Virus record (IMG/VR): IMGVR_UViG_3300035670_000475
Span: 1-42,329 of that record
DNA length: 42,329 nt
Strand: one strand, 5' to 3'
Source of the DNA: a virus
Positions 2,446 through 42,329 of the stretch are shown in pieces (within the stretch, counting starts at the first letter, position 1; each line of letters opens with the position of its first letter). The notes beneath the pieces are model-generated. The model saw nothing but the letters and a program-made list of their open reading frames with translations. It was not told where the DNA came from and did no database searches. The translations under genes and the position numbers were made by a program.

Positions 2446-2452
2446 GGTTGAT

Positions 2453-6642: not shown

Positions 6643-6663
6643 TACCATTACCCCTTACAAGGT

Positions 6664-6728: not shown

Positions 6729-6735
6729 GATTCAA

Positions 6736-9530: not shown

Positions 9531-9550
9531 GAAATATTTCCGTTTGATGG

Positions 9551-9585: not shown

Positions 9586-9586
9586 C

Positions 9587-19937: not shown

Positions 19938-19953
19938 TCTAAGGGAGAATCCC

Positions 19954-21038: not shown

Positions 21039-21040
21039 AT

Positions 21041-24000: not shown

Positions 24001-24024
24001 TTCAACTTTTTTGGAGTATTCACC

Positions 24025-24900: not shown

Positions 24901-24912
24901 TAGGAGCAAATC

Positions 24913-25338: not shown

Positions 25339-25350
25339 TTTTTAGGGTTC

Positions 25351-25385
25351 AAGCAGGGGGCTTCGGTCCCCTGCTTTTGATTTTT
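25351..25385 (+). terminator. Rho-independent terminator after head genes
   Basis: AAGCAGGGG/CCCCTGCTT stem (25351-25359 with 25368-25376) around GCTTCGGT, then TTGATTTTT. It allows the capsid and cement genes to be expressed more than the downstream tail genes. Confidence 0.9.
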
Positions 25386-25398
25386 AAGAGGTGCTCCA

Positions 25399-25959: not shown

Positions 25960-25960
25960 C

Positions 25961-28120
25961 ATGGCAAAAGCATCCCCGATGCAAAATTCTTTCAACGCAG
26001 GGGAGTTGTCCCCTCAGTTGAAGGGCCGCGCAGACCTTGAAAAGTATCGCAATGGTTGCGATACCATGACCAACTTCTTTCCTCAGATTCACGGACCGGC
26101 ACGCAAACGCCCAGGCACCCGATTTGTCAATGAGGTCAAAGACTCGAGCAAGGCAGTGCGTCTGATCCCCTTCGAGTACAGCACCGACCAAGCCTACATC
26201 ATTGAGTTTGGTCACAACTACATCCGGTTTTACGCCAACGGCGGTGTGGTGCAAAGTGGTGGCTCGACCTACGAGATTTCCAGCCCCTACGCCAGCACAG
26301 AGCTGGCCGACTTGGACTATGCCCAATCGGCAGACGTCATCTACATCTCGCACCCGAGCTACCCGCCCTACAAGCTGGCGAGATTTGGTGCGACCAATTG
26401 GACAATGACCGCAGTCACATTCGACTGGCCACCGTTTACCGACGAAAACGTCAGCGCTGTGACCATGACTGCTTCTGCGGTCACCGGCAGCATCACGATC
26501 ACCGCATCGGCATCCACTTTTGTGTCGGGCGACGTTGGCTCGTATTTCAGATTTTCCGAAGTCATTGAGTCAAAGTACGATCAGTGGGTGACTGGCGCTT
26601 CGGTCAGCTCTGGCGCATTTCGTCATTACAACGGTAATTTGTACGAAGCAAGCAGCACTGGTACAACCGGCTCGCGTCCTCCGATCCACACAGAGGGAAC
26701 CGAGAGTGACGGCACTGTCAGTTGGGTGTTTCGTCACAGCGGTGAGGGCTATGCTCAAGTCACCGCATACACGAGCGCCACACAAGTCAGCGCAACGGTC
26801 ATTGACCGACTGCCCGCCAGCGCCACATCGGCCACCAAAAAGTGGGCAGAAGGTGCATGGTCCTCGCGCAGAGGTTACCCACGCTCGGTCACGTTCTACG
26901 AAGACCGTCTATGGTTTGGCGGCTCGGCATGGAAGCCTCAGACACTGTGGGCGTCGACCAGTGGTGACTACGAGAACCACCAGTACGGCACCAATGACGA
27001 CGATGCGCTGAACTACACCATCAACACCCAAGACATGAACACGATTCAGTGGTTGTGTCCAAGCAAAGTGTTGGCCATTGGCACATCCGCTGGCGAGTTC
27101 ACACTCAGCGCCAGCTCGATCAGCGATCCAGTCACGCCAACCAACGTCAAGATCACACCGCAAACCACATACGGCAACGCTGCCAATGTGCGCCCATTGC
27201 GCGTGGCCAGCTCGATCCTGTTTGTGCAGCGAGCAGGTCGCAAGCTGCGTGAATATGTCTACAACTTTGAGACCGACTCATTTGTCGCGCCCAACATGAA
27301 CGTGTTGGCCGAACACATAAGTGAGAGCGGCCTCATCGATCTGGCTTACCAGCAAGAACCCAACCAAATCGTCTGGGCACCTCGCACTGACGGCACCTTG
27401 GTCGGCATGACATATGAACGTGCCGAGGATGTGGTTGGCTGGCACGAGCAGGACATTGGTGGCGACGTTGAGTCGGTGGCAACTATCCCTCACTGGGACG
27501 GCGACCAAGACGTGTTGTTCATGGTTGTCAAGCGCACCGTGGACGGTGCCACCGTGCGATATGTTGAGTATTTGGAAAAATATTTGACCGGCGACGAGGC
27601 GTTTTATGTTGATTGCGGCCTGACTTATGACGGTGCCGCTGCGACAACAATCACTGGCCTCGATCACCTTGAGGGTGAGGAAGTCGCAGTTCTGGTGGAC
27701 GGTGCCGTGCACCCTAACCGCACCGTGGTGTCTGGTGAGATCGATTTGAACCGCGAGGGTTCTGTCGTGGTCGTTGGCTTGCCCTACACCGCCACCATCA
27801 AAACCATGCCGCTGGAAGCAGGTGCGCAAGATGGTGTGGCTCAAGGCAAAACCATGCGAATCCACAATTTGGTCTTGCGATTGTTTGAGACAGGTGCTGG
27901 CCTGTGGTACGGTCCAAGTGAGACCGTCATGGACGAATACCACCCTCGCCGCACCGGTGACTTGATGGATCAGGGCGTGCCCTTGTTTACGGGCGACACA
28001 TCGATCCTGCCATGGCCTGGCGAATATCAGAATTCACCCCAAATCACAATTCAGCATCGACTGCCGCTGCCGTGTACACTTGTCGCATTGATGCCACAGG
28101 TTCACACCTATGATCGTTAG
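25961..28120 (+). CDS. Tail tubular protein B / nozzle (T7 gp12-like)
   Basis: A 719-aa protein whose start MAKASPMQNSFNAGELSPQLKGRADLEKYRNGCDTMTNFFPQIHGPARKRPGTRFV is the hallmark of phage tail nozzle proteins, followed by a long beta-rich body with IPHWDGDQDVLFMVVKRTVDGATVRYVEYLEK. It builds the tail nozzle under the gp11-like adaptor. Confidence 0.93.
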   Translation: MAKASPMQNSFNAGELSPQLKGRADLEKYRNGCDTMTNFFPQIHGPARKRPGTRFVNEVKDSSKAVRLIPFEYSTDQAYIIEFGHNYIRFYANGGVVQSGGSTYEISSPYASTELADLDYAQSADVIYISHPSYPPYKLARFGATNWTMTAVTFDWPPFTDENVSAVTMTASAVTGSITITASASTFVSGDVGSYFRFSEVIESKYDQWVTGASVSSGAFRHYNGNLYEASSTGTTGSRPPIHTEGTESDGTVSWVFRHSGEGYAQVTAYTSATQVSATVIDRLPASATSATKKWAEGAWSSRRGYPRSVTFYEDRLWFGGSAWKPQTLWASTSGDYENHQYGTNDDDALNYTINTQDMNTIQWLCPSKVLAIGTSAGEFTLSASSISDPVTPTNVKITPQTTYGNAANVRPLRVASSILFVQRAGRKLREYVYNFETDSFVAPNMNVLAEHISESGLIDLAYQQEPNQIVWAPRTDGTLVGMTYERAEDVVGWHEQDIGGDVESVATIPHWDGDQDVLFMVVKRTVDGATVRYVEYLEKYLTGDEAFYVDCGLTYDGAAATTITGLDHLEGEEVAVLVDGAVHPNRTVVSGEIDLNREGSVVVVGLPYTATIKTMPLEAGAQDGVAQGKTMRIHNLVLRLFETGAGLWYGPSETVMDEYHPRRTGDLMDQGVPLFTGDTSILPWPGEYQNSPQITIQHRLPLPCTLVALMPQVHTYDR

Positions 28121-28535
28121 ACCTTGGGAAAAAGGTGACACCGAAAAGGTGAGAATCCAACAGGCTCAGTCCTACATGTATGGTGCGCCTGAGATCACGG
28201 CAGACTTGACCGAGTTGTCCACAGCGGGGCTGGCTTGGTCATTTGACGATAATGGTGAGATTTTGGGGATTGCCGTAGTTGCTCCACAGTGGGACAATCG
28301 GGCAATGGCGTTGGTTTTGATGTCAGAATCAGCGGGCAAGCATTTTCACAAAATCCACAGAGCTGTCAACAGGTTTTTGGACATCGCTGGGTTTCGCAGA
28401 GTCGAGGCCACTGTTGATGTCGGGTTTGAAGCTGGCGATCGGTGGATGCAAATGCTGGGGTTTGAATTTGAAGGGTTGATGCGAGCGTACCGTCCAGACG
28501 GGGCAGACATGAAACTCTATGCGAGGATCACATAA
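28110..28535 (+). CDS. GNAT-fold virion protein (T7 gp13-like)
   Basis: A 141-aa protein: MIVRPWEKGD N-terminus, ILGIAVVAPQWDNRAMALVLMSESAGKHFHKIHRAVNRFLD and GFRRVEATVDVGFEAGDRWMQMLGFEFEGLMRAYRPDG. This is the acetyltransferase-like fold of the T7 gp13 group, needed for assembly of the ejection proteins. Whether it acetylates anything is unknown. It overlaps the nozzle gene by 11 nt. Confidence 0.8.
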   Translation: MIVRPWEKGDTEKVRIQQAQSYMYGAPEITADLTELSTAGLAWSFDDNGEILGIAVVAPQWDNRAMALVLMSESAGKHFHKIHRAVNRFLDIAGFRRVEATVDVGFEAGDRWMQMLGFEFEGLMRAYRPDGADMKLYARIT

Positions 28536-29014
28536 TGGCTTTCTTAGCACCTTTAGCTTTTGGTACGGCGGCAACTGCTACAACGGCGGCTACAGCCGGG
28601 TTGTTCGGTTCGGCAGGGGCATTTGCACTGGCACCTACATTGGCGACAGTTGGTACGGGTCTGTCCGTGCTGGGTTCGATCAAAGCTGGCCAAGCCACTG
28701 CTGACGCTGCTGACTACAACGCTCAAACCTCGATGATTGAGGCGCAGGTTGAAGAGACACGCCGCCGCAATCAAGCCAGACAACAAATGGGCGCCTTGCG
28801 TGCCAGCATTGCCAAATCGGGTGCAACGTCCGAGGGTACACCTTTGCTGGCCATCACCGAATCAGCTGCCAACGCTGAAATTGATGCACTCAACGCACAA
28901 TGGTCTGGCAGTCGTCAAGCCCAAGCGATGCTCATGCGCGGCAAAGCTGCAAAAACCGAATCCTATCTCCGTGCCGGTACATCGCTGATGTCTGGCCTAA
29001 GCCGAGTCATGTAA
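28535..29014 (+). CDS. Internal virion protein (T7 gp14-like)
   Basis: A 159-aa protein with a hydrophobic Ala/Gly/Thr N-terminus (membrane-active) and a coiled-coil helix (NAQTSMIEAQVEETRRRNQARQQMGALRASIAKSGAT, about 68-105). The pattern SIAKSG-TSEGTPLL matches T7 gp14-like ejection proteins that enter the outer membrane. Confidence 0.87.
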   Translation: MAFLAPLAFGTAATATTAATAGLFGSAGAFALAPTLATVGTGLSVLGSIKAGQATADAADYNAQTSMIEAQVEETRRRNQARQQMGALRASIAKSGATSEGTPLLAITESAANAEIDALNAQWSGSRQAQAMLMRGKAAKTESYLRAGTSLMSGLSRVM

Positions 29015-29023
29015 GGACACACA

Positions 29024-30910
29024 ATGGCAAAACTCCCTATTTACGAAGTCCAATCGCGCCCACAGGGTGGACAAGTATCCCCCGAAGCAATGGGTGCTGG
29101 CATTGGTCAAGCAGCTGCAGACATGGGTGCAACACTGGCCGACATTGGCGTGGCATCAATGCGCCGTCAAGAGGTCATTGATCGCGTGCAGTTGCTCAAC
29201 TCGTTCGATCAAACTGCCATCTCCGACTTGGAAGCTGTGCAGGCTGACGGCAGCATTGCCAGTAAAGAGACTGTGGACAAATATTCCAGCGCCCTGCGCC
29301 AGCGAATGGATCAGACTCTTAATCAACACCGTGGTAGTTCTGCCAGCCGTGCTGAATTGCGTGCACAACTTGAAAACCAACTTGGTCAGTACACCAAGTC
29401 GGCCATGAGTAACCAGATTAAGGCCCAGTACACGATGATCGGCGAGGCTGCTGACAAAGCAGCCAACAAGTACGCCATGACCGCAGGCTTGGCCCCCGAT
29501 CAAATGAACAACGCATTTGCGTCATTTGAAGCTGATTTGAACAAACTCAGCGGTGCCATCAGCGTTGACCAGATGGACAAGTTCCGTCAAATCGGACGTT
29601 CTCGCATTGCCGATGGTGCTATTCGCGGACTGCTGCAGCGTGGTAATTACACCGAAGCTAAAAAGCTGCTGACCGACCCAGCCATTGGTGGCACATTGAG
29701 CGCAGACACCTCTCGTCAACTTACCATGGACGTGGCTGTTGACGAGTACAAGGCTGAAAAGCAGGTGAAAGAGCAAGAGCAAAACGTGGCTCAGTGGACC
29801 TCGATTCTCAAGCGCAATTTGTCACCCGAAGAGCAGATGCGCGTGCGCATGTTGCCCCAGAAGAAGGCCGAGTACACACTGGCCGACAAGCTGGTCGAGT
29901 TGGAATTGGTGCAGGGTAAGCCAGCAACCCCTAGCCAAGTGACCGAGCTGATGGGCTTGCAGGGCTCCAGCGGCATGTTTGGTAACAGCATGCAGGGCAT
30001 GGCCTTGAACTTTGTGACCACGAACGCTGTGGCCTATGCCAACGGCATGTTGCCGCCAGATCAAGCGCGTCAATTCGAGGCGTCTTTCAACGAGGCCTAT
30101 AAGCCAGTCGAGAAGCAAGACCCTGTGACAGGCCTGTGGACTCGTATTGCCCCAGCCGTTCCAGCGTTTGCCCAGCAAGCCATGCAGCGTGGTAGCAGAC
30201 TGTACGGCGGTGGCTTGGGTAATGCGATGCCACAACCCTCGATGAACCAAGCACCCGCAGTGACAGGTGCTGTGACATCACCCGCACCCCAGCCTGCAGC
30301 GCAACCCGCTGCCCAGCCTGCAGCACAACCTGCTGCCGGTGGCCAGCCTGCAGCCGCTGCTGCCGCGCAGCCTAGCCCGGCGCCTGCAGCCGATGGTCAA
30401 AGCATTTGGTCTCGCCGCTCGAACATTTCCGGCGTAGTCCCAAGTGTTGCGCAGACCGTGGGTCAGATGCCGTTTATCGGTGAAGCCGTGGGCGGTGGTG
30501 GCCAATACGCCACAGATCGTCAATACGCTGAAGCACAGGGTCGTGAGTTGATCCGCGCCTTGAGCCAGTCGGGTCGTTATCTGGCCAGCGAGATGCAATC
30601 GATCGAAAAAGAGGTTTCTCTTGCAGGTCAAACCTTCGACAACCCCGTGGCCTACGGTCAGCGTTTGATTGGTGTCGACGAGGCGTTGGCTAAACGTGTC
30701 GCCGATGCTCAAAAAGATCTAGGCAACCCCAGCATCAGCATTGAAAAACGCAGAGCGGCCAACGATGTGATTGCTACAATCACCAACTTCCGTCAGACAC
30801 TTGGTGTACCACCGCGCGTCAAAACAGAAGCCGAATATAAGAAATTAGCACCAGGTTCTGAATACATTGACCCAAATGGGGTGATCGGTAGAAAAGGAGC
30901 ATCTAAATAA
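29024..30910 (+). CDS. Internal virion protein (T7 gp15-like)
   Basis: A 628-aa protein in the gp15 position. Mostly alpha-helical, with a QPAAQPAAQPAAQPAAGG low-complexity segment (about 420-460) and a C-terminal helical domain. The DNA of that segment is repetitive. No lytic motif is visible. It probably forms the trans-periplasm channel with the gp16-like protein. Confidence 0.85.
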   Translation: MAKLPIYEVQSRPQGGQVSPEAMGAGIGQAAADMGATLADIGVASMRRQEVIDRVQLLNSFDQTAISDLEAVQADGSIASKETVDKYSSALRQRMDQTLNQHRGSSASRAELRAQLENQLGQYTKSAMSNQIKAQYTMIGEAADKAANKYAMTAGLAPDQMNNAFASFEADLNKLSGAISVDQMDKFRQIGRSRIADGAIRGLLQRGNYTEAKKLLTDPAIGGTLSADTSRQLTMDVAVDEYKAEKQVKEQEQNVAQWTSILKRNLSPEEQMRVRMLPQKKAEYTLADKLVELELVQGKPATPSQVTELMGLQGSSGMFGNSMQGMALNFVTTNAVAYANGMLPPDQARQFEASFNEAYKPVEKQDPVTGLWTRIAPAVPAFAQQAMQRGSRLYGGGLGNAMPQPSMNQAPAVTGAVTSPAPQPAAQPAAQPAAQPAAGGQPAAAAAAQPSPAPAADGQSIWSRRSNISGVVPSVAQTVGQMPFIGEAVGGGGQYATDRQYAEAQGRELIRALSQSGRYLASEMQSIEKEVSLAGQTFDNPVAYGQRLIGVDEALAKRVADAQKDLGNPSISIEKRRAANDVIATITNFRQTLGVPPRVKTEAEYKKLAPGSEYIDPNGVIGRKGASK

Positions 30911-33729
30911 TGGCAACTACATTATTCGGTGATCCTGTTTCTGGTCCTGAAGATTCAGCCAGTTCAGGTAACACCACTACATTTGGCGATGCGTCTATAA
31001 ACCAGACCCCGGACCTTCAGCAACAGGGTGCCATTGCTGCTGAAACAGGCGCTCGCGGCTTTATTGAGTCAACAGGCGTTATTGGCGGCACGATGCTGGG
31101 TGCAAAATTTGGCACCATGGCCGCACCATTCGCCGGCCCACTTGCACCCGCCATGCCTGTCATCGGTGGACTGGGTGGCGCGGTGTACGGTATGTTTGCC
31201 GGTCAACAGGCCAGCGAGGGTCTAGGCCTTCGCAGCCCCCAGCAATTGCCCCCAGAGCAACGACCTGCTGGTTATTTTGGTGAGTCTTTTGGTGGGTCGC
31301 TGTCCTTCGGTGCCGCGCCGTTTACCGCAGCTGCATCGGGGTACCGATTTGGTCAATCGATGGTTGGCAACTTCCTGAACGACATCATTCAGACCGCAAA
31401 AACATCCCCGATCAAGGTTGGACTGTCTGAGGCGTCTGCTGCTCTTTCGAGCGCCGGTGCTGCGTATGTGGCCGAAAGTCTTGCCCCTGGCGAACAGGGC
31501 AAGCGAGTTGTGGCCGAAACCGCCGGTGGTATCTTTAACCCATCTCGCTTGGCACTGGCTGCGACCGGGTATGTTTACAACACCGGCAAGCAGGCCGTGA
31601 TGTCTTTGTCGGGCGCTGCACAGCAAACCGCAGCGGCCAAAACACTGCAAGACCTGTTCCGAGTCACTGGCGAAGATCCTCAAATGATCGCCAAAATCCT
31701 GCGTGCGCAGGGTGTCGAGGGTGTGTCTGGCAATTTGACAGCTGCCCAAAAGACAGGTTCTGCCGGTTTGGCCGCACTTGAGGACTATTTGGCTAAAAGC
31801 AGCAGCAAATTTGGTGCTGAAGCTGCTCAATCGGCCCGTGACGGCATGGACGCCATTCGTGGCCAGATCACGCTACTGAGCAGCACAGGTGACCCACAAG
31901 CGCTTGCCGCTGCCGCTGAAGCTCGAACCGTTTACTTCCGCACCCTGATCCAAGGACGCTTGGATGCCGCTACTGACTTGGCTGCTGTGTTTGCCAGAGG
32001 CATCACCGCAGACACCCCATCAGCACGTGCGGAAATTAGCCAAAAAGCACGCGAGGCGCTCGACTTGGCCATCACTGAGTCGCGCAAAGCCGAAAGTGAC
32101 TTGTGGAGCAAGGTTGACGGCAAACGCACCGTTGGTTTTGAAAACCTGCAGCGCACGCTGGCCGACATCAAGTCGAACATTGCACCTGACGCCAAAAACG
32201 TCCAAGTGCCACCAGAAGCCCAGCAGTTCTTGGCCCGTATCAGCCAGCCCAAGCAGGGCGAGCAGTCGCTGATCATTCTGCCCGAGAACCTGAGCCGCAA
32301 CGCGCCTGTAGAGCCTGTGGGCACCGATGTGTTCATGATGCGCAAGATGCGCAGTGACTTCCTGACATCGGCCCGCAAAGAGGCCATTGCGGGCAACAAC
32401 GAGCAAGCCTCGTTCTACAGCCAGCTGGCTGAGGCGATCCTTGACGACATGGATGTGGCTTTCCGCGAAGTGGGTGACACCACCTATGACGCCGCCCGGT
32501 CCTTCTCGCGTGAGTTCAACGATGTGTTCACCCGCAGCTTCGCTGGCCGCGCTGTGGCCACTGGCCGCTACGGTGACCGCATGGCCCCTGAGATCATGCT
32601 GCGCAAGGCCTTGGCCACCGGCAAAGAAGCTGGCAGCTTGCAGCTCCAAGAGCTCGAGCAGGCCACCCGCTTTATGCAGGTGCGCGGCTTTGGTGACGAC
32701 ACTGCCGTGCGGGACATGCTGGAGTCGCAGGAGCGGTTTATTCGCTTGGCCGCTGCTGAAGTGGTTGACCCGCAAACTGGCTTGGCCGACCCCAAGAAAA
32801 TCGCCAAATTCGTGCGTGACAACGAGGTGCTGATGAAGCGCTTCCCAGAGGTCAAACGCGACCTGACTTCGGCATCCTTGTCTGAGCAGGCCCGTCAGCG
32901 TTTGCAAGATTTGGCCAAAAACCAGATCAACACCATCGAGAAGCAAAAGGCGTTTGGTCGCATGGTGGCGTCTGACCCAGTGACCATGGCCAGCCGCGCC
33001 CTGTTGTCCAACAATCAGGAAAAAGACCTGATTGACATGATCAACATTGCCAAACCGGGTTACAAGCCCCGTGGTGGTGTGCCCGGGGTTGACTCTGAAA
33101 CAGCGATTGCGGGCATGCGTGCCTCCATCTTTGACGCTGCCATTCGCCGCTCAACCGACAAGAACGGCGTGCTCAACATTGCCCAAGTTCGCGGTTTCCT
33201 GTTTACGCCAAGCGTACCGGGTCAAAAGTCTCCGATCCAAGTCATGCAGGAGCAGGGTGTCATTGACGCCGGTCAGGTCAAGGACATCAAAAAACTGTTC
33301 GACACTGCCGACAACATCGTGAGCTCTCAGACCGCCGGTACAGCCATTGACATCAACACCGGCTTCGGTGATGCTGCGCTGGCCACAATCAGCCGTATGG
33401 TGGGCTCTGGCATCGCTGGTGCTGGCGCACGGGCAATGGGCTCCAACACCCCGTCCCTGATCGTCCACGGTGCGGGCGCTCGGTTTGCCGAGACCGTGAT
33501 CACCAAACTGCCCGGTAAACGTGCAACCGTTTTCCTGATCGAGGCGATGAATGACCCTCAGATCATGGCCACACTGCTGGAGAAGGTTGATACCCCGGCA
33601 AAAGCCGCTCAACAAGCTCGCCAAATCCATGCGTGGCTTGTACAATCTGGACTGACAGGCACCCGTGAGGCTTTGGGCGTCAATGACCAACCCCAAGAAC
33701 GCCCAGAGTTCTTCAGCCGCCCGCAATAA
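30910..33729 (+). CDS. Internal virion protein (T7 gp16-like)
   Basis: A 939-aa ejection protein immediately after gp15-like, starting one base before its stop. The N-terminus contains Gly/Ala-rich membrane-seeking stretches (GARGFIESTGVIGGTMLGAKFGTMAAPFAGPLAPAMPVIGG, about 45-85), then long helical regions. No lysozyme or transglycosylase catalytic motif is found, unlike T7 gp16, so peptidoglycan cutting, if any, must come from elsewhere. Confidence 0.85.
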   Translation: MATTLFGDPVSGPEDSASSGNTTTFGDASINQTPDLQQQGAIAAETGARGFIESTGVIGGTMLGAKFGTMAAPFAGPLAPAMPVIGGLGGAVYGMFAGQQASEGLGLRSPQQLPPEQRPAGYFGESFGGSLSFGAAPFTAAASGYRFGQSMVGNFLNDIIQTAKTSPIKVGLSEASAALSSAGAAYVAESLAPGEQGKRVVAETAGGIFNPSRLALAATGYVYNTGKQAVMSLSGAAQQTAAAKTLQDLFRVTGEDPQMIAKILRAQGVEGVSGNLTAAQKTGSAGLAALEDYLAKSSSKFGAEAAQSARDGMDAIRGQITLLSSTGDPQALAAAAEARTVYFRTLIQGRLDAATDLAAVFARGITADTPSARAEISQKAREALDLAITESRKAESDLWSKVDGKRTVGFENLQRTLADIKSNIAPDAKNVQVPPEAQQFLARISQPKQGEQSLIILPENLSRNAPVEPVGTDVFMMRKMRSDFLTSARKEAIAGNNEQASFYSQLAEAILDDMDVAFREVGDTTYDAARSFSREFNDVFTRSFAGRAVATGRYGDRMAPEIMLRKALATGKEAGSLQLQELEQATRFMQVRGFGDDTAVRDMLESQERFIRLAAAEVVDPQTGLADPKKIAKFVRDNEVLMKRFPEVKRDLTSASLSEQARQRLQDLAKNQINTIEKQKAFGRMVASDPVTMASRALLSNNQEKDLIDMINIAKPGYKPRGGVPGVDSETAIAGMRASIFDAAIRRSTDKNGVLNIAQVRGFLFTPSVPGQKSPIQVMQEQGVIDAGQVKDIKKLFDTADNIVSSQTAGTAIDINTGFGDAALATISRMVGSGIAGAGARAMGSNTPSLIVHGAGARFAETVITKLPGKRATVFLIEAMNDPQIMATLLEKVDTPAKAAQQARQIHAWLVQSGLTGTREALGVNDQPQERPEFFSRPQ

Positions 33730-33739
33730 GGACTGATTC

Positions 33740-35938
33740 ATGACCATCAGCACCACAGCTTCCCGCATCTCGTACAACGGTAACGGTACGACCGTTGCCT
33801 TCAGCTTCCCCTACCGATTCCTGCAAAACGCCGATCTGGTCGTCATCCGAGTCGCCGCCAACGGCACAGAGACAACGCTGGCGCTGGGCACCGACTACAC
33901 CGTCACAGGTGCAGACGATGATGCTGGCGGTACTGTGACCTGCGTCTCGGCCCCTGCTTCGGGTGCCCGACTGGTGATCTACCGCTCGGTGGACATCACC
34001 CAAGAGGTTGATTACATCACCGGCGACTCGTTCCCCGCTGAGACACACGAGCGTGCTTTGGACCGCCTGACCATGGTTGCCCAGCAGCTGCAGGATGCCG
34101 TGGACCGCTCGGCCAAGTTGTCCGAGACCAGCACTGCGGACGCCGACACTTTGGTGGCCAACATCAACTCGTTGGCTGCGATTGAGGATGACATTGTTGC
34201 AGTGGTTGCAATTGAGGAAGATATAACCATTGTTGCCGACAATATTGCAGACATTCAGGATGCTGAAGAAAACGCAACCGCTGCCGCCAACTCTGCAACT
34301 GCTGCGTCAACCTCTGCAACCAATGCGGCCTCAAGCGCCAGCACAGCCAGCACTGCGGCCACAAACGCTGGCAACAGCGCAACCGCTGCGGCCTCGTCGG
34401 CTTCATCGGCCAGCAGCTCTGCAAGCGCGGCCAGCACATCGGCAAGCAATGCGTCCAGCTCTGCGTCTGCCGCGAGTACATCGGCCAGCAACGCCAGCAC
34501 ATCTGCGACCAACGCAGCGAGTTCTGCCAGTGCCGCCAGCACAAGCGCAAGTGGTGCCTCAACAAGCGCGACAAACGCAAGCAACTCTGCGACTGCTGCG
34601 GCCACCAGCGCCACCAACGCAGGCAACTCGGCAACAGCGGCTGCAAGCTCTGCGTCTGCCGCTGCGACAAGCGAGACCAACGCTGCGGCATCGGCTGCGG
34701 CTGCTGCCTCTGCGCTTGACAGTTTCGACGACCGCTACCTGGGCGCAAAGTCTTCAGACCCAACGGTGGACAACGACGGCAACGCGCTGGTGACTGGCGC
34801 GCTGTACTACAACACCACCACGCAGACCATGAAGGTCTACGATGGCGCGAACTGGATCGCGGCCACAGCAGCTGGCACATCGGCCATGTCTCGCTACCGC
34901 TACGTGGCGACCTCTGGCCAGACCACATTCTCTGGCTCTGACGCAAACAGCCTGACACTGAGCTACACCAGCGGCAACATTGTGGTGGCTCGCAACGGCG
35001 CAATGCTTGACCCCTCTGAGTACACCGCGAGCAACGGCACAAGCGTGGTGCTTGGCGTGGCCGCTGGCACTGGCGATGTCGTTGACATCGTGGCGTTCAA
35101 GTCATTCACCGTGGCTGACACGTACAGCATCGCTGGCGCTGATGCCGAGTTCTTGCGCAAAGCAGGCGAGGACGGCGTCACCGTTACTGGCGGTAACGTG
35201 GGTATTGGTACGAGTTCGCCTAATTCAAAACTTGAAATTTCTGGCAGCTCTACATTTATTCCAACAACAACCATCACAGCAGATAACGCCGTGACAGGTT
35301 GGCGAGTTCGTAGAACAGGCGGTACATATCCACGCGAATACTATATGGGGGTTCGTGAAAATAGCACTGCATTGGACTTTTACGACAATACCGCAGACGC
35401 ACTTCGCGCCCGTATCGACTCCAGCGGTAACTTGCTGGTGGGACAGACAGCTCTTAACGGTGCTGGCAAAGTCGAAGTGTCTTATGACCGCGCTTCCAGC
35501 TGGGGTATGCAAATCCGCAACACTACAGGAACAACTGCGGCCACTACGTACATTGCGTTTAAGTATGTAAACACAGAAACTGGATACATTTCTAGTTCTG
35601 GAACTACGACTGCTTATAACACAACCTCCGACTACCGCTTAAAGCACGACATCCAACCCATGACTGGTGCGCTTGCCAAAGTCGCTGCACTCAAGCCCGT
35701 CACCTACAAGTGGAACGTAGATAACAGCGATAGCCAAGGCTTCATTGCCCATGAGCTTCAAGCCATCGTTCCTGAATGTGTTGTTGGTGAGAAAGACGCT
35801 GTGGACGCTGATGGCAACCCTCAGTACCAAGGCATCGACACCAGCTTCTTAGTTGCCACTCTGACAGCAGCCATCCAAGAACAGCAAGCCATCATCACCG
35901 CTTTGACAGCCCGAGTCGCAGCACTGGAAGGAAACTAA
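33740..35938 (+). CDS. Tail fibre with T7 gp17-type N-terminus and S74 chaperone
   Basis: A 732-aa fibre in four parts: an N-terminal virion-attachment domain (about 1-130, T7 gp17-like), an Ala/Ser/Asn-repeat shaft (about 175-330), a receptor-proximal part, and a C-terminal intramolecular chaperone with the S74 Ser-Lys dyad (S630, K635 in SDYRLK) and GFIAHEL. The chaperone trimerises and cleaves itself off. Base composition shifts to AT-rich near 35190, marking a probable module swap. Confidence 0.93.
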   Translation: MTISTTASRISYNGNGTTVAFSFPYRFLQNADLVVIRVAANGTETTLALGTDYTVTGADDDAGGTVTCVSAPASGARLVIYRSVDITQEVDYITGDSFPAETHERALDRLTMVAQQLQDAVDRSAKLSETSTADADTLVANINSLAAIEDDIVAVVAIEEDITIVADNIADIQDAEENATAAANSATAASTSATNAASSASTASTAATNAGNSATAAASSASSASSSASAASTSASNASSSASAASTSASNASTSATNAASSASAASTSASGASTSATNASNSATAAATSATNAGNSATAAASSASAAATSETNAAASAAAAASALDSFDDRYLGAKSSDPTVDNDGNALVTGALYYNTTTQTMKVYDGANWIAATAAGTSAMSRYRYVATSGQTTFSGSDANSLTLSYTSGNIVVARNGAMLDPSEYTASNGTSVVLGVAAGTGDVVDIVAFKSFTVADTYSIAGADAEFLRKAGEDGVTVTGGNVGIGTSSPNSKLEISGSSTFIPTTTITADNAVTGWRVRRTGGTYPREYYMGVRENSTALDFYDNTADALRARIDSSGNLLVGQTALNGAGKVEVSYDRASSWGMQIRNTTGTTAATTYIAFKYVNTETGYISSSGTTTAYNTTSDYRLKHDIQPMTGALAKVAALKPVTYKWNVDNSDSQGFIAHELQAIVPECVVGEKDAVDADGNPQYQGIDTSFLVATLTAAIQEQQAIITALTARVAALEGN
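34270..34730 (+). repeat. Low-complexity repeats in the fibre shaft
   Basis: About 460 bp encode tandem Ala/Ser/Asn/Thr units (AASSASTAS-like) with recurring AACGC, GCCAGC and TCTGC words. Such repeats can change length by slippage or recombination, altering fibre length between strains. Confidence 0.85.
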
Positions 35939-35940
35939 TC

Positions 35941-36960
35941 ATGGGAAAAACTGCATCACTGGCCAGCCTGGGCAGCATCGCTGACACATCGCTTGGCTTT
36001 CGTAACCGCATCATCAACGGTGATATGCGGATTGACCAGAGGAACGCTGGTGCGAGTGTGACTCCTGCTGACTCAGCTTATACGCTTGATCGTTATCAAG
36101 TTCGTTTGACTCAATCCAGCAAATATTCCGTAACCAAAAGCTCGGTAGCACCTGCTGGATTTATCAATTCTCTGCTGGTCACTTCGCTTAGTGCTTTCTC
36201 TGTTGGCTCAACTGATTTCTTTCAGGTTCGCCAGCTTATTGAAGGGTACAACGTGTCTGACCTTGGCTGGGGAACGTCTTCAGCGCAGCCTGTAACAATT
36301 TCATTCTGGGCAAGATCATCACTCACTGGAACTTTCGGTGGCGTTCTTTCAAATGCTAACGGTGACCGTAGCTATCAGTTTTCATATTCGATTGCGGCTG
36401 CAAACACATGGGAGCAAAAGACGGTAACGATTGCTGGTGACACAACTGGCACATGGCCAACAGGCAACGTAGCTTCATTTGTGCTGGCTTTTGCGCTTGG
36501 TGCAGGGTCATCTGTAAGCGGCTCCACTGGGTCATGGGGTAGTACACTATATCGCTCGGTTACTGGCGCTGTTTCCGTAGTCGGCACATCCGGAGCCACC
36601 TTCTACATCACAGGCGTACAGCTTGAAGCTGGTAGTGTTGCTTCACCGTTTGAGCGCAGGGATTATGGGCGTGAATTGATCATGTGTAGCCGTTATTTTC
36701 AAGCATTTATTGCTTCAGGGTCGATAAATTACTGGGGCGGTACAGGACGACTCCGTTTTCAGCTTCCAGTTCAAATGCGAGCCGCCCCGACTTTTGCACT
36801 GACAGGCACTGGTGACGCTTCAGGTCTTACTACACTAAGCGGAGGTTCTTTCACAGAATCTTTTACTACTGCTGGTCGGTACGACAACACAACAAGCGCA
36901 CTAGCTAATTGGCAATCCGCATCGGCTTATATTCCCGTTAGTGCAGCAGCAGAACTATGA
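35941..36960 (+). CDS. Tail fibre/receptor-binding protein
   Basis: A 339-aa protein with FRNRIINGDMRIDQRNAG near the start, YTLDRYQVRL and the VQLEAGSVASPFERRDYGRELIMCSRYF motif, typical of phage receptor-binding tail proteins. The middle is beta-rich (lectin-like). With the S74 fibre it probably sets host range. Its codon use is AT-richer than the head genes. Confidence 0.85.
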   Translation: MGKTASLASLGSIADTSLGFRNRIINGDMRIDQRNAGASVTPADSAYTLDRYQVRLTQSSKYSVTKSSVAPAGFINSLLVTSLSAFSVGSTDFFQVRQLIEGYNVSDLGWGTSSAQPVTISFWARSSLTGTFGGVLSNANGDRSYQFSYSIAAANTWEQKTVTIAGDTTGTWPTGNVASFVLAFALGAGSSVSGSTGSWGSTLYRSVTGAVSVVGTSGATFYITGVQLEAGSVASPFERRDYGRELIMCSRYFQAFIASGSINYWGGTGRLRFQLPVQMRAAPTFALTGTGDASGLTTLSGGSFTESFTTAGRYDNTTSALANWQSASAYIPVSAAAEL

Positions 36961-37412
36961 ACATCCAACTAAGCCAACAAGACAAAGACCTACTCCAGCA
37001 CAACTGGACGGCGCTTGCGTCTAAGCACATCACATACGCCAAGGCTTCTATTGGTGGCAAGCAGGTTCTTCTTCATCGCCTTGTTGCCGAGCGTATGGGG
37101 CTTTCGTTAAACGGCGTGATTGACCACATCAACGGTGACGCGTTGGACTGTCGCAGAGAAAACCTGCAAGCGTGTACGCATCAGCAGAACATTATGAAGC
37201 AGCGGCATCAGACAACAGCACGAAGCCCGTACAAAGGTGTCATGCAGTTCCGAGACAAGTGGCGCTCACGCATCACAATCAATGGCAAGACAATGCACTT
37301 GGGTCTGTTCGCCAACGCTGTCGATGCCGCCCGTGCGTACAACGAGAAAGCCAAAGAACTGTTTGGCGACTTTGCAAATCTGAATGAGGTGAACCATGTA
37401 CCAACAAATTAA
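36957..37412 (+). CDS. HNH endonuclease with AP2 DNA-binding domain
   Basis: A 151-aa homing-type endonuclease. HNH core about 38-82 (LLHRLVAER, VIDHINGDALDCRRENLQACTHQQN), then an AP2 domain about 92-142 (YKGVMQFRDKWRSRITINGKTMHLGLFANAVDAARAYNEKA). It overlaps the fibre gene end by 4 nt. A mobile gene placed in a variable fibre locus. Confidence 0.92.
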   Translation: MNIQLSQQDKDLLQHNWTALASKHITYAKASIGGKQVLLHRLVAERMGLSLNGVIDHINGDALDCRRENLQACTHQQNIMKQRHQTTARSPYKGVMQFRDKWRSRITINGKTMHLGLFANAVDAARAYNEKAKELFGDFANLNEVNHVPTN

Positions 37413-37569
37413 CGACACCCTAACAGGCCAACCCGCGCAGTGTATTAAACGCATTGCTGACAACGCTTTCATTCCTTTTGATGACGCGAACACTGATTTC
37501 GCTGAATACAAGAAGTGGCTTGCGGCCGGGAACACTCCACTGCCAGCAGACGAGGTAAGCAATGGATAA
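37396..37569 (+). CDS. 57-aa small protein
   Basis: ATG at 37396, overlapping the endonuclease end, followed by the 78-aa membrane gene. It carries FIPFDDANTDFAEYKKWLAAGNTPLPAD, a motif common in small phage tail-associated proteins (tail-fibre assembly or XkdW-like). Function unknown. Confidence 0.68.
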   Translation: MYQQINDTLTGQPAQCIKRIADNAFIPFDDANTDFAEYKKWLAAGNTPLPADEVSNG

Positions 37570-37798
37570 CCAACAACTCTTTAACCTTGTCGTATCGGTT
37601 GCAGGGTTTCTTGCTGTATTCGTGTTCTATCAAGTCATGCAACGCTTGCAACGCCTTGAAGACAATCTGAGCGCACTTGAAAAGCAACTGCCTCACGACT
37701 ATGTGACCAAGGATGACTATCGCGCTGACATTAAAGAAGTCAAAGACATTCTGCGACAAATCTTTGATAAGTTAGACGGTAAGGCAGACAAATCATGA
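37562..37798 (+). CDS. 78-aa membrane protein with coiled coil
   Basis: One N-terminal transmembrane helix (about 8-24), then a coiled-coil (MQRLQRLEDNLSALEKQL) and a charged helix (DYRADIKEVKDILRQIFDKLDGKADKS). The pattern resembles holin-associated or XhlA-like lysis accessory proteins. Overlaps the 57-aa gene by 8 nt. Confidence 0.7.
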   Translation: MDNQQLFNLVVSVAGFLAVFVFYQVMQRLQRLEDNLSALEKQLPHDYVTKDDYRADIKEVKDILRQIFDKLDGKADKS

Positions 37799-37899
37799 AA
37801 GATTGGGCAATAGCTTTCGTAGCTGCTGCCCTTGTTTCTTGTTTGTGTATTTGGGCTGCTTTTTCAATTATGCCGATTCTTCAGTGGGTGCTTAGATGA
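37795..37899 (+). CDS. 34-aa single-TM micro-protein
   Basis: MKDWAIAFVAAALVSCLCIW and a further hydrophobic run, ending MPILQWVLR. It overlaps both neighbours as ATGA. Almost all of the peptide is one membrane helix. A pinholin-like or antiholin-like role is possible but unproven. Confidence 0.6.
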   Translation: MKDWAIAFVAAALVSCLCIWAAFSIMPILQWVLR

Positions 37900-38399
37900 T
37901 TGGTATGCTGCTTGATCCAGAAGCCGCGCTCGACGCGGTTAATAAGGCGGTGTCTCTGGTCAAAAAGGCCAGTGCTACAGCGCAGAGTGTGGAGTCTCTG
38001 GCTCCAATGCTTGGCAAGTATTTTGATGCGAAGGCTAATGCTATTGCGTCTGCTGAAGCTGCTAAAGCAGGGACGTTTGGCGGCTCGTCCATGGGCAAGG
38101 CTCTGGAGATTGAGCTTGCCATTGACTCACAAAAAGAGTTTGAAGAAGACCTGAAACGATTGTTCTGGAACGCCAACAAGATGGACGTGTGGCAGAAGAT
38201 CAAGGCTCGCGCCACAGTGATGGAGGCCGAGGCTGCCAAGGCTGCTGGAAAGGCCAAGGAAGACGCTCGGCGCAAGAAGCAAAAGGATCAGGAAGACCTT
38301 GAAACAGCGATCGCCGTTATCCTGTCTGTTGTGATCTTCGTCATCCTGATGTGGGGTGGTTGGGAGTTGTTCTCTTTCTGTCGCAAGTACGGGTGTTGA
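37896..38399 (+). CDS. 167-aa coiled-coil membrane protein
   Basis: Long Ala/Lys/Glu-rich helices (about 15-135) and a C-terminal transmembrane helix (AIAVILSVVIFVILMWGGW, about 138-158). Its last codons are duplicated at 1-86, where the gene is cut by the contig edge. The location next to lysis genes suggests a holin-like or spanin-like role; no family is recognised. Confidence 0.75.
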   Translation: MIGMLLDPEAALDAVNKAVSLVKKASATAQSVESLAPMLGKYFDAKANAIASAEAAKAGTFGGSSMGKALEIELAIDSQKEFEEDLKRLFWNANKMDVWQKIKARATVMEAEAAKAAGKAKEDARRKKQKDQEDLETAIAVILSVVIFVILMWGGWELFSFCRKYGC

Positions 38400-38553
38400 G
38401 ATGTGTGGAAACTTCTCAAGTGGTTTGACGTTGGCACAGACTGGAAACTTGGGTTTGACAGGTTTCTCCAGTTCTGCTGTGGAGCCATCATCGCTCACCA
38501 CTTGCTGGACATCCTCTATGTCTTGCCGGTTGAGGACTCCCAGTCCATCATTG
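38314..38553. repeat. Right copy of the contig-end duplication
   Basis: This is the second copy of the segment at 1-240. Here it sits in full context: the 3' end of the 167-aa membrane protein gene (37896-38399) and most of the 62-aa gene (38403-38591). The complete upstream gene indicates that this is the intact copy, and that the left copy is cut off by the contig edge. Confidence 0.93.
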
Positions 38554-38591
38554 AGTTCATAAAGTCCAACATCCCATTTGGAGGCCAATGA
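38403..38591 (+). CDS. 62-aa lysis-region protein (copy 2)
   Basis: Homologue of the 61-aa protein at 90-275, identical over its first 51 residues, then different in the C-terminal tail (FIKSNIPFGGQ). GTG start. The stop overlaps the ATG of the lipoprotein as ATGA. Function unknown. Confidence 0.7.
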   Translation: MWKLLKWFDVGTDWKLGFDRFLQFCCGAIIAHHLLDILYVLPVEDSQSIIEFIKSNIPFGGQ

Positions 38592-38806
38592 AAGTCCTGA
38601 AAATCTTAATGCTGTGTTTGGTTCTTACTGCTTGTGAAGACCAGTACCGCTATTTCTGCCAAAACCCTGACAACTTCTACAAAGAGCAATGTCAGAAGCC
38701 ACGCTGCCAGTTCACGCAGACCTGCCCCGAGTATCTTGTCGCACCCATTTTGGAGAAGCAAATTGAGCAAACCAGACCAGCCTCAGAGCCAACACCTGTC
38801 CGCTGA
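38588..38806 (+). CDS. Small lipoprotein
   Basis: A 72-aa protein with a signal peptide and lipobox LTAC (Cys16) and four more Cys residues in the mature part. A GGAGG site precedes it. It may be an outer-membrane lysis or exclusion factor; it is separate from the nested Rz1 downstream, and the GH24 branch at the left end has nothing similar. Confidence 0.75.
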   Translation: MKVLKILMLCLVLTACEDQYRYFCQNPDNFYKEQCQKPRCQFTQTCPEYLVAPILEKQIEQTRPASEPTPVR

Positions 38807-39251
38807 AGAAATTGAGGTCAGGATATGGGGTTTCGTAGTCATCATGATTACGATCATTCTGACATTCATTGTCTTTGCATTGCTGTATTCGGTAACGTTT
38901 GTTACGCAACCGATAAAGGCAATGGCTCCGATTGACCAAGCCTATACAAAGATGCTGAACGACATTGTTCTGTTGATTGTTGGTGGTATCGGTGGGGTTG
39001 TGGGTAAACGAGCAGTGGGGGCGGCAACGCAAACATTCTCCCCAAAGCCACCAGCGGCTGCGGTTCCTGCGCCACAGCCGCAAAACCCGACCAACCAGTC
39101 AAGCCTTCCTGACTTCAACTGGATGGGATTTAAAAACCCTGAGTTGGATGAATCATGGACTCCCGGCCCACCACCTACAACACCGCCAGATCATCTTGAA
39201 GATGATGACGAGCGCCAAGTAATTGCCGCCGCACGACTTGAGGACAAATGA
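38763..39251 (+). CDS. Two-TM holin-like protein (TTG start)
   Basis: A 162-aa protein starting at TTG 38763 with GGAG 8 nt upstream. Transmembrane helices about 22-48 (IWGFVVIMITIILTFIVFALLY) and 70-92 (MLNDIVLLIVGGIGGVVGKRAVG), then a Pro-rich and acidic C-terminal tail. Two TM helices directly before spanins and an endolysin point to a holin. The start overlaps the lipoprotein gene. Confidence 0.7.
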   Translation: MSKPDQPQSQHLSAEEIEVRIWGFVVIMITIILTFIVFALLYSVTFVTQPIKAMAPIDQAYTKMLNDIVLLIVGGIGGVVGKRAVGAATQTFSPKPPAAAVPAPQPQNPTNQSSLPDFNWMGFKNPELDESWTPGPPPTTPPDHLEDDDERQVIAAARLEDK

Positions 39252-39751
39252 TGTTTGGCATACCACTTTCTTGGGTTATCGGTGGCGCGGCAATCCTTGT
39301 TGTCTCTACCTACTTCACAGGCCATCACAAAGGCTGGACACAGCGCGATGCTGAGATGCAAGTAGAGATTGCTAAGAAGAATGAGGAATCTCGCGCCAAA
39401 GAGCAAGAGATGGTTCTTGCTGTCAATCAGAAAGATGAAGAATTAAGAAAGGCTAACGATGTTGTCAACAAAAAACAAACTGATATTAATCGCCTCATTG
39501 CTACTGGCAGGATGCGGCTCCCGACCACAAGTTGTGTACAAGCCCCCGCAAGTACCCCCGTTGCCGCCGGAAATAGCGCAGAAGAAAGAGCCAAACCTGA
39601 CGAACAGGTTAATCAACCTTCTGACTCCGAGCGAGAAACCCTCCAACTCATTGCCCAAATCGCCGCAGACGGAGACAAGGCAATCAACCAACTCAACGCC
39701 TGTATCGACTCCTACAACGAAATGAGGGAAATCGTAAATGGTCAACGCTGA
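39248..39751 (+). CDS. Rz: i-spanin (Rz-like)
   Basis: A 167-aa inner-membrane protein: an N-terminal TM helix (about 7-23, VIGGAAILVVSTYF), then a coiled coil (about 34-80, RDAEMQVEIAKKNEESRAKEQEMV) and a Cys-containing C-terminal part. Together with the nested o-spanin it spans the periplasm and fuses the membranes in the last lysis step. Confidence 0.87.
   Translation: MMFGIPLSWVIGGAAILVVSTYFTGHHKGWTQRDAEMQVEIAKKNEESRAKEQEMVLAVNQKDEELRKANDVVNKKQTDINRLIATGRMRLPTTSCVQAPASTPVAAGNSAEERAKPDEQVNQPSDSERETLQLIAQIAADGDKAINQLNACIDSYNEMREIVNGQR
39459..39725 (+). CDS. Rz1: o-spanin (Rz1-like) nested in Rz
   Basis: An 88-aa lipoprotein in another reading frame wholly inside the Rz gene. Signal peptide with lipobox LLAGC (Cys19), then a Pro-rich mature part (YKPPQVPPLPPEIAQKK). 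This is the classic embedded Rz1 architecture and it confirms the spanin pair. Confidence 0.85.
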   Translation: MLSTKNKLILIASLLLAGCGSRPQVVYKPPQVPPLPPEIAQKKEPNLTNRLINLLTPSEKPSNSLPKSPQTETRQSTNSTPVSTPTTK

Positions 39752-40337
39752 ACAACTCAAGGCATTGCATATTGACTCTAAGTGGGTTGATCCGCTGAAC
39801 GAAACATTCAAGCGTTTTGATATTGCTACGCCCCGTCAGCAAGCCGCATTTATCGGGCAGTGTGGTCACGAATGTGGTCACTTCAAGATGCTGGAAGAAA
39901 ACCTGAACTATCGTGCTGAAACCCTGATGAAGCTGTGGCCCAAACGGTTTCCTACTCTTGAGTTTGCTAAACAGTACGAGCGTAATCCTAAGAAGATTGC
40001 TAACTCTGTCTATGCCAACCGAATGGGAAACCGAGATGAAGCCTCTGGTGACGGTTATCGCTTCCGTGGTCGTGGCTGTATCCAATTGACAGGATCAGCT
40101 AACTACTTTCATGCTGGCAAGGCTTTGGGGGTTGATTTTGTGATGCAGCCTGATCTTGTTGCTACGCCTCAGTACGCAGCACTAACCGCTGGCTTCTTTT
40201 GGAACACACAGCGATTAAATGCTTTGGCTGAAGTATTGAATCACACAGCACTGACCAAGAAGATCAATGGCGGGACTATCGGTCTTGATGACCGTATCAA
40301 GCACACTAACCATGCCTTGGCAGTTCTAGGCGGCTAA
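39738..40337 (+). CDS. Endolysin, GH19 chitinase-type
   Basis: A 199-aa peptidoglycan hydrolase of the GH19 family. QCGHECGHFKMLEENLNY (41-58) carries the catalytic Glu45 and second Glu54, YRFRGRGCIQLTGSANY (107-123) is the substrate-binding core, and TKKINGGTIGLDDR follows. It starts inside the Rz gene end. The left branch has a GH24 enzyme in the same lysis position instead. Confidence 0.94.
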   Translation: MVNAEQLKALHIDSKWVDPLNETFKRFDIATPRQQAAFIGQCGHECGHFKMLEENLNYRAETLMKLWPKRFPTLEFAKQYERNPKKIANSVYANRMGNRDEASGDGYRFRGRGCIQLTGSANYFHAGKALGVDFVMQPDLVATPQYAALTAGFFWNTQRLNALAEVLNHTALTKKINGGTIGLDDRIKHTNHALAVLGG

Positions 40338-40497
40338 TCGGCACATAACAACAAGCCTCAGAAGCACTTGTCTCAACTAACACGACAGGTGTTCTTGGCC
40401 CCATTGTTTGTTTTGGGTGATTGATATACAGCTTGCAATTATTACAATAGTGATCCGGGTGTTCTGGATCGCATCGCGTAATGTCAAACGGCATCAT
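40306..40497 (-). CDS. 63-aa Cys-rich small protein
   Basis: Contains CDPEHPDHYCNNCKLY, a His/Cys cluster, and a later ASEACCY pair, so metal binding is likely. It is the last gene of the right early operon; its end overlaps the GH19 gene's end by 32 bp, convergently. Function unknown. Confidence 0.62.
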   Translation of the reverse strand: MMPFDITRCDPEHPDHYCNNCKLYINHPKQTMGPRTPVVLVETSASEACCYVPISRLELPRHG

Positions 40498-40766
40498 CGT
40501 TCATTACCTTGTAGTCTGTCTGCAACCAGTTGAGCATATCCAGCAATGTCAATCCAACTGTCAGCATAGTTTGGATCGCCATTAAGAATACGAGCAATCT
40601 TGTGGCAAATCATATCTAAGGCTTCTGTTTGATCGTCTTCAAACTCAGCGCAACGAACGCTTATCGCATCATGGACAACATACTTCAGTCTCTGAGCGAT
40701 TAACGCATGGTCTTTAAACTTGCCATAACGCTTGCCTCGTTCTTGAAGGATTTCTGTAATCATCAC
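40494..40766 (-). CDS. DUF6378-like protein
   Basis: A 90-aa protein with RGKRYGKFKDHALIAQRLKYVV, QTEALDMICHKIARILNGDPNYADSWIDIAGYAQLV, the DUF6378 signature. Its role is not established, but it often neighbours MazG-like genes. ATGA overlaps on both sides. Confidence 0.85.
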   Translation of the reverse strand: MMITEILQERGKRYGKFKDHALIAQRLKYVVHDAISVRCAEFEDDQTEALDMICHKIARILNGDPNYADSWIDIAGYAQLVADRLQGNER

Positions 40767-41068
40767 GCCTCCTTAACAAAGATGCCTTCTGGTGTCAGAT
40801 AGCCCTTGCGGTCTTTAATCTGGTCATAGGCGTGATTAAAACAAGTCACAAGGTCAAGATCAGCAGTGGCGCAACCCATGACAAGGGTAACGAGAATATC
40901 GCCGTATGCGTCAATCATGGCTTCTCTGTCGTTTGCTTCAATCGCGTCAAACAACTCTTGTAGTTCTTCTTGGGTCTTCTTGGCTTGTGCTTTAGGGTTG
41001 CTGTTCTGAACAATCCCTCTAGCCTCACCCCATTGAACGACCTTCATTTCAGTTTGTGCGTAACTCAT
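40763..41068 (-). CDS. MazG-like nucleotide pyrophosphohydrolase
   Basis: A 101-aa all-alpha NTP pyrophosphohydrolase: EELQE (34-38) and DAYGDILV (53-60) provide the metal-binding acidic residues, and the C-terminal DRKGYLTPEGIFVKEA is typical. It would hydrolyse NTPs or ppGpp-like alarmones in the infected cell. The structured element copy 2 lies directly upstream. Confidence 0.9.
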   Translation of the reverse strand: MSYAQTEMKVVQWGEARGIVQNSNPKAQAKKTQEELQELFDAIEANDREAMIDAYGDILVTLVMGCATADLDLVTCFNHAYDQIKDRKGYLTPEGIFVKEA

Positions 41069-41084
41069 TTTCTTCCTTGTAGGT

Positions 41085-41173
41085 GGGGCTTACTCGCTAC
41101 GTCTGTCAGGGCCGCACCGCATGAACTAAATCACTTGGCTGGGCGTTATCTAACAGCATCCGCTTTCAGCCCC
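41085..41173 (-). ncRNA. Candidate structured RNA element, copy 2
   Basis: Starts 5 nt after the stop of the SSB-like gene and ends 17 nt before the MazG-like ATG. Outer helix GGGGCU/AGCCCC, then the invariant core strands GAAAGCGGAUG and ACGUAGCGAGUA. The inner helix is CUGUUAG/CUGACAG (41156-41150 with 41109-41103), different from copy 1's CUGUGGC/GCCACAG yet still paired. The loop is longer here (40 nt against 16). CCACCU follows and could pair with the downstream AAGGA. Confidence 0.6.
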
Positions 41174-41178
41174 GTTAA

Positions 41179-41430
41179 TCAAAATGGCGCGTCATCCATG
41201 TCATCAAACCCGCTAGAAGGCTTAGAAGCCTTTTTAACGGGCGCTGAGTCCTTGGGCTTGACTGACAGGCTCAAAAACTTTTTACCCGTCTTCTCGCTCG
41301 TTTTAAGCCATCCTGATACCCACAAGTCAACGCCATTGACATTGAGGCTACCTTTATAGTCGGGATGGTTGTCTTGTTGCTTATCATCATTCTTGAAGAT
41401 AGCACCTCGATTGCTGTTGTCGTATTGCAT
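41179..41430 (-). CDS. SSB-like / DUF736-like protein
   Basis: An 83-aa protein. GAIFKNDDKQQDNHPDYKGSLNVNGVDLWVSGWLKTSEKTGKKFLSLSVKPK forms a small beta domain, and the acidic tail GFDDMDDAPF resembles the partner-binding tip of single-stranded-DNA-binding proteins. It likely coats ssDNA for the ERF protein upstream in the operon. Confidence 0.7.
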   Translation of the reverse strand: MQYDNSNRGAIFKNDDKQQDNHPDYKGSLNVNGVDLWVSGWLKTSEKTGKKFLSLSVKPKDSAPVKKASKPSSGFDDMDDAPF

Positions 41431-41432
41431 GA

Positions 41433-42047
41433 TTATTCCTTTGCTTTCTTAATTGCACTGCGCGTTTTGCTGTCTAACAGCGTCCACAACGCTACTTTTT
41501 GATCTGCCTCTAGGTTCTCCCCTTCAAGCCTTGCCAAAGCCTTCTTAGGATCGCCCTCGGACACATTAGCGGTCAAATCTTCCGCTAATTCCTTTAGATA
41601 TTCCATTTCCTCCGCTGGCAAGCTGTCTGCAATGCCTTGTGCTGGAGTGATGATTACCTTCTTTTCTTCAACTGGCTTGGATGAATCAATAGCATCATGC
41701 TCAATGATTTCCAAGGCCGCAACCCACAAATATCGGCGCAAGTATGTCTGAACAGCACCAAGGTTCTGAACAGCGTGACAGCCCTTCAGATTGGCTTCAG
41801 ACATTGGGCTTGTGATAACGATTGTCTCTGATGGCTCGTCAATGTTAATGATGGTCATTGTGGCAACATCGTGGCAAAAGCTGATGACGCTGACAAGACG
41901 CACACGACTAAACACTTCAAGAGCCGGGACAACAAAGTCTGCCAGTTCAAAGTATTTGTAACCAGCAAACTTGTTGTGGCCTGATTTCTTCAACTCAATC
42001 TTGTGAAACTCGCTACGAGCCATGTTGAGTTTTTGGTAGACATTCAT
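41433..42047 (-). CDS. ERF-family single-strand annealing protein
   Basis: A 204-aa recombinase of the ERF superfamily. KIELKKSGHNKFAGYKYFELADFVVPALEVF (about 17-48) and QNLGAVQTYLRRYLWVAALEI (about 95-115) are the hallmarks. It anneals ssDNA in homologous recombination. The left arm has no ERF but a DUF2800/DUF2815 pair instead. Confidence 0.9.
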   Translation of the reverse strand: MNVYQKLNMARSEFHKIELKKSGHNKFAGYKYFELADFVVPALEVFSRVRLVSVISFCHDVATMTIINIDEPSETIVITSPMSEANLKGCHAVQNLGAVQTYLRRYLWVAALEIIEHDAIDSSKPVEEKKVIITPAQGIADSLPAEEMEYLKELAEDLTANVSEGDPKKALARLEGENLEADQKVALWTLLDSKTRSAIKKAKE

Positions 42048-42163
42048 TTTGATTCCTTAAATTGTGGTGGGTATGGGATGTTAAACGCTTTGCAAAGTTC
42101 TTCCATCTTTGCCCAAGCTGTCGGGCTTTCCATGCCCATCGCGTACAGATCGTTTTCGGTCAT
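42044..42163 (-). CDS. 39-aa small protein
   Basis: ATG 42163 overlaps the stop of the 50-aa gene as ATGA, and the stop (42046-42044) overlaps the ERF start in the same way. Sequence MTENDLYAMGMESPTAWAKM and on to PPQFKESK. An earlier in-frame ATG at 42193 has TTGGAG upstream and gives 49 aa. Function unknown. Confidence 0.55.
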   Translation of the reverse strand: MTENDLYAMGMESPTAWAKMEELCKAFNIPYPPQFKESK

Positions 42164-42312
42164 TGCTTGCACACTTTCTTTGCCAACAGCCATTTGTCTC
42201 CAAGGAAACGAATTGACCTAACCCACTGGCGGCAATTGTGTCGCTGTGTGCTAACTGGCACTCCGTCAACGCAGAACAGGCTGCGTACTTGTTTCAAGGC
42301 TTGTGTGTTCAT
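42160..42312 (-). CDS. 50-aa homologue of the 53-aa left-arm protein
   Basis: ATG 42312 with AGGAG upstream. The C-terminal half, from RHNCRQWVRS to LGDKWLLAKK, is homologous to RHNRKAWVRS to LGDRWLLAKN in the protein at 2269-2430. It is the most promoter-proximal gene visible in this arm, which is cut by the window end. Function unknown. Confidence 0.68.
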   Translation of the reverse strand: MNTQALKQVRSLFCVDGVPVSTQRHNCRQWVRSIRFLGDKWLLAKKVCKQ

Positions 42313-42329
42313 CGAACGCTCCTAAGTTG

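Follow-up and report, generated by a model that had tools for sequence, protein, structure and literature searches.

Gene content of the window

The DNA analysed here, referred to as the window, is the full 42,329 nucleotides of the IMG/VR virus record IMGVR_UViG_3300035670_000475. On the plus strand, lysis cassette A (277–1319) comprises a holin-like gene (277–801) and a GH24 endolysin gene (798–1319), the latter identified by PF00959 (E 2.6e-37, 128.4 bits against a cut-off of 22.3). Early arm A (1316–12195, both strands) follows, whereby profile matches revealed genes for an SNF2 helicase, PolB, an HNH protein, an Enc34-type SSB (6736–7404; PF10991, present name Enc34_ssDNA-bd), a DUF2800 exonuclease (minus strand; PF10926, E 3.5e-69) and a primase-helicase (plus strand). 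A podophage-type structural block, X, occupies 17825–36960 on the plus strand and was assigned by profile matches to a terminase, a head–tail connector (PF12236), a capsid protein (PF19821), and tail and fibre genes, including that of a nozzle-type tail protein. Two HNH genes are present in the window (6196–6648 and 36957–37412); the first sits between the Enc34-type SSB gene and PolB, at a place where DSL-LC05 (see below) has a short gap.

Lysis cassette B (38588–40337, plus strand) starts with a lipoprotein gene (38588–38806), which is the first gene beyond position 38566, and continues with a holin-like gene. The Rz gene (39248–39751, a match to phrog_1327) encloses, in another frame, an Rz1-like lipoprotein gene (39459–39725) whose product begins MLSTKNKLILIASLLLAGC; a lipoprotein gene that lies, in a different frame, within the gene of an Rz-type inner-membrane protein is the arrangement of an Rz/Rz1 spanin pair. 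The cassette ends with a GH19 endolysin gene (39738–40337; PF00182, E 4e-11, 43.6 bits against a cut-off of 25.5), and the MazG (PF03819), SSB and ERF (PF04404) genes of early arm B are found beyond it on the minus strand (40494–42047, profile matches). The initial annotation had described a divergence into a GH24 set and a GH19/Rz/Rz1 set, with DUF2800 in one early arm and ERF and MazG in the other, and the Pfam and phrog matches agree with it.

Both cassettes are preceded by the same sequence. When the window was aligned to itself by BLAST, positions 1–253 matched 38314–38566 at 98% identity, with five mismatches and no gaps. This pair is the sole long repeat of the window, and all 104 repeated 60-mers belong to it. 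Counted from base 1, the match is exact for 127 bases (1–127 and 38314–38440). Between 1–240 and 38314–38553 the copies differ at positions 128 and 224 only, each a silent T/C change between GAT and GAC (Asp); the near-identity with two silent changes that had been noted earlier was thus reproduced base by base. Copy A (1–253, plus strand) holds the end of a gene and a small transmembrane gene (90–275). As had also been noted, the gene truncated at 1–86 is complete only at 37896–38399, where it encodes 167 amino acids.

The full anchor tract (37562–38591, plus strand) contains three small genes, at 37562–37798, 37896–38399 and 38403–38591, and is common to phages with unrelated structural blocks, across which the 167-aa protein is mostly 79–98% identical. 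This protein has a predicted membrane segment at its end. Searches of the three anchor proteins against Pfam returned no match above the cut-off, and a search of bacterial genomes with the anchor protein found no relative and hence no host or prophage evidence. The 167-aa protein may have a role in lysis.

Separately, a structured RNA element was recognised by a 22-bp repeat (6708–6729 and 41153–41174); it occupies 6656–6732 and 41077–41177 of the minus strand and has the consensus CGGGGCUGAAAGCGGAUGCUG – variable hairpin – GCAGCGAGUARGCCCCACCU. It was also seen in L004, L126, L150, L151 and other loci, and a search of the second set of loci with a covariance model gave 45 matches, of which 38 were distinct. 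In the model-fitted alignment 93.8% of cells pair, and two-sided changes were counted at seven pairs against 1.7 in shuffles; because the alignment was fitted to the structure, these counts are biased in its favour. The element is often located 1–4 nt downstream of an SSB-type gene; in those cases in which a next gene was identified, its start is mostly 5–16 nt further on. Comparison with Rfam within the window gave no family match. The element is possibly a new cis-acting phage RNA, as predicted from its sequence; it is not part of the contig fusion discussed below and may merit a study of its own.

Assembly forks and a probable circular genome

In a SPAdes graph, neighbouring pieces overlap by exactly K. 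The largest K reported for JGI metaSPAdes assemblies is 127 (PMC7171226), and of the exact overlaps between the examined contig ends, those of 127 bases were the most frequent. The opening 127-mer of the window recurs at 38314–38440, and its last 127 bases (42203–42329) are identical to the end of L018 (3300035670_005078), a contig of metagenome 3300035670, the probable source of the window. Both ends of the window are therefore graph forks. At the first, the 127-mer opens branch A (base 128, T) as well as branch B (base 38441, C).

Within the viral collection, a 43-mer of this node was found elsewhere only in 3300035670_001596 (L302), which terminates 50 bases into the node, and a further contig of that metagenome, L301, opens with the final 75 bases of the window. 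These overlaps of 50 and 75 bases, rather than 127, count against the fork explanation. From the 127-base overlaps and the presence of the 43-mer in L302, it follows that the node has at least two exits, A and B, and probably two routes of entry, X and L302. When a 35-mer specific to the junction with A was searched in other contigs, no second contig was found to carry it.

No 127-bp circular overlap was found in the literature searched. The closest description is that of inter-strain ambiguity in de Bruijn graph assemblies (PMC11443906), in which, as here, where one contig runs through it, a shared stretch longer than K hides which downstream piece fits which upstream piece. In the window, however, the genomes concerned would be two of unlike morphotype with the short anchor tract alone in common.

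The identity of 1–127 and 38314–38440 would close positions 1–38313 into a circle of 38,313 bases, but the same node also has a second exit. An A-type PolB and an X-type connector were found in a single record in six cases (G054, G057, G060, G061, G062 and G064; 36.6–41.2 kb), and complete reading of four of them (G054, G057, G060 and G064) showed the early arm and the connector-type block once each, in the circular order of the window. The end repeat of G064 is exactly 127 bases long, and that of G060 is 123 bases. Relatives in which block X and arm A closely resemble those of the window had no GH24 gene, so the join of X to this GH24 cassette is seen in no second contig, which also counts against the fork explanation. 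A phage recorded as circular and complete, DSL-LC05 (OR003940, 37,569 bases; PMC10611076), has the same circular plan as the window at about 38 kb and the same early arm, with protein identities of 77% for PolB, 88% for SNF2, 82% for DUF2800 and 85% for SSB, but differs in its lysis genes and structural block, the TerL proteins being only 45% identical.

Exchange of lysis cassettes and early arms among relatives

Across 67 other records, GH24 was found in 17, GH19 in 19 and both in none. These counts agree with the other evidence but are no strict test, since the set includes many partial records and many that had been retrieved with one of the two markers. In loci fetched with the anchor protein, all four combinations of cassette and arm were observed: GH24 followed by arm A (L030, L035, L037 and L038), GH24 followed by arm B (L009, L013, L026, L046 and L051), GH19 followed by arm B (L004, L006, L007, L008, L018, L020, L043 and L044) and GH19 followed by arm A (L014 and L041). 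L014 shares the anchor and arm A (98%) with the window and has GH19 in place of GH24, i.e. alternative cassettes between homologous flanks. Because its GH19 alignment ends, and its arm-A alignment starts, no more than seven bases apart, this join was not made by a 127-base shared stretch. Identity also shifts at the anchor, from 77% before to 86% after in L047 and from 90% to 73% in L013. L041 has an X-like tail, then GH19 and then arm A. Of the 31 other records with the anchor, only one contained the connector of X, with 30% identity.

Given the four combinations, the join in L014 and the shifts of identity at the anchor, the anchor tract is, as read from these sequences, a border for lysis-cassette exchange common to phages with unrelated structural blocks. 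The exchanged cassette, GH24 or GH19/Rz/Rz1, would extend from the anchor border to where the endolysin gene ends, and the early arms would be exchanged in the wider population as well. By the same comparison, the alternative cassettes are real in that population, and the exchange is of a known kind. Natural exchange of endolysins and lysis cassettes by homologous recombination has been described in lactococcal phages (PMC9371310), where the holin–endolysin region is likewise swapped between phages with homologous flanks; the present case differs in that it is drawn from sequences of uncultured phages and lies between unrelated structural blocks. The HNH gene at 36957–37412 was considered as a driver of cassette exchange but is not supported in that role, having weak relatives only, in none of which it is placed beside the anchor. 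A tandem pair of GH19 genes, 87% and 44% identical to that of the window, was observed in G005 (3300043444_000209, 35889–37122).

Origin of the contig

Base composition was compared between the parts of the window and its partner contigs. Early arm A has a GC content of 55.5% and block X 57.0%, against 47.5% for the B branch (38441–42329), and positions 1–38313 together have 56%. The partner contigs resemble the B branch (L302, 47.3%; L301, 46.1%; L018, 44.9%). The tract at 35941–38313 has a GC content of 49.7%, so that low GC sets in upstream of the fork; a similar dip is present in L041. L302 carries a siphophage-type block (TerL, portal, major head protein, tape measure, distal tail and J-like fibre proteins), and its seven large proteins gave no match when compared with the window. 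Its tail-end genes are similar to those of L006 and L008, both of which have GH19 and MazG, and L301, an early-arm contig, has sequence in common with the arm-B contig L009. On the basis of GC, block types, the sequence shared by L301 and L009, and the likeness of L302 to L006 and L008, we infer that X naturally joins A and that L302 joins B.

A virion protein of L302 (16101–17702) has a 59% relative in the podophage-type genome G057 (L292, 12726–14102), and that gene lies just before the G057 counterpart of the first anchor gene (37562). This likeness suggests that tail genes move along with the anchor tract.

The window is very probably the circular podophage-type map of 38,313 bases with about 3.9 kb from a second, siphophage-type phage attached to it, its two lysis sets being an effect of assembly. 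The assembly path would have made one turn of the podophage-type genome (1–38313), left the circle at a 127-base node common to a second phage of the sample, and then continued into the siphophage-type genome (38441–42329), with its own lysis cassette and early arm. The right neighbour of base 38313 would be base 1, leading into branch A with its GH24 lysis genes, and branch B most likely has L302 to its left. The shared node would exist because the anchor tract has moved by recombination between podophage-type and siphophage-type phages. The initial annotation had proposed a genome of about 38.3 kb, circular or permuted, with the contig continuing into a sibling variant. Such a genome (38,313 bases), with a contig that continues into another phage rather than a single molecule with two lysis sets, is supported; the sibling variant is not, because the GC content (47.5% against 55–57%), the partner contigs L302 and L301, and the relatives point to a phage of another morphotype that has the anchor tract alone in common.

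It is also conceivable, though unlikely, that the sample contains, beside the GH24 form, a true recombinant in which X is joined to the GH19 cassette and MazG/ERF arm. The occurrence of all four lysis-by-arm combinations in relatives favours such a phage, and the X-like tail followed by GH19 in L041 makes an X–GH19 phage possible in principle, but the arm that follows in L041 is A, not B, and the same node is where a siphophage-type block whose GC content matches that of B comes to its end. That a single molecule should carry the two lysis cassettes together with the two early arms, as a genome of at least 42 kb or a cointegrate, is highly improbable: the assembler did join the pieces in one contig, but base 1 and the last base lie at 127-base forks, both endolysins occur together in none of the 67 other records searched, GC drops from 57% to 47.5%, and relatives close as circles with one arm. 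A further reading, that 1–253 and 38314–38566 are a genuine terminal repeat or a duplicated gene end in a linear phage genome, would fit the near-identity of two sequences lying at or close to the two ends, but can practically be dismissed: the second copy is internal with 3.8 kb of unrelated sequence beyond it, the stretch of exact identity has the length K, the first copy is truncated within a gene, and no such duplication is found in relatives.

If the window is a complete podophage-type circle run on into another phage, the exact 127-base overlap of its start with an inner site is the flag for this, and the gene lists of the record should therefore be split at 38313. A broader possibility, which we consider improbable, is that the anchor tract acts as a hub passing lysis cassettes and early arms between morphotypes, and that a true recombinant with podophage virion genes and a GH19/ERF arm would be present beside its parents in the sample. 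The loci compared here would also provide a clean example from nature of phages that have unrelated structural blocks and exchange their lysis cassettes at a fixed border.
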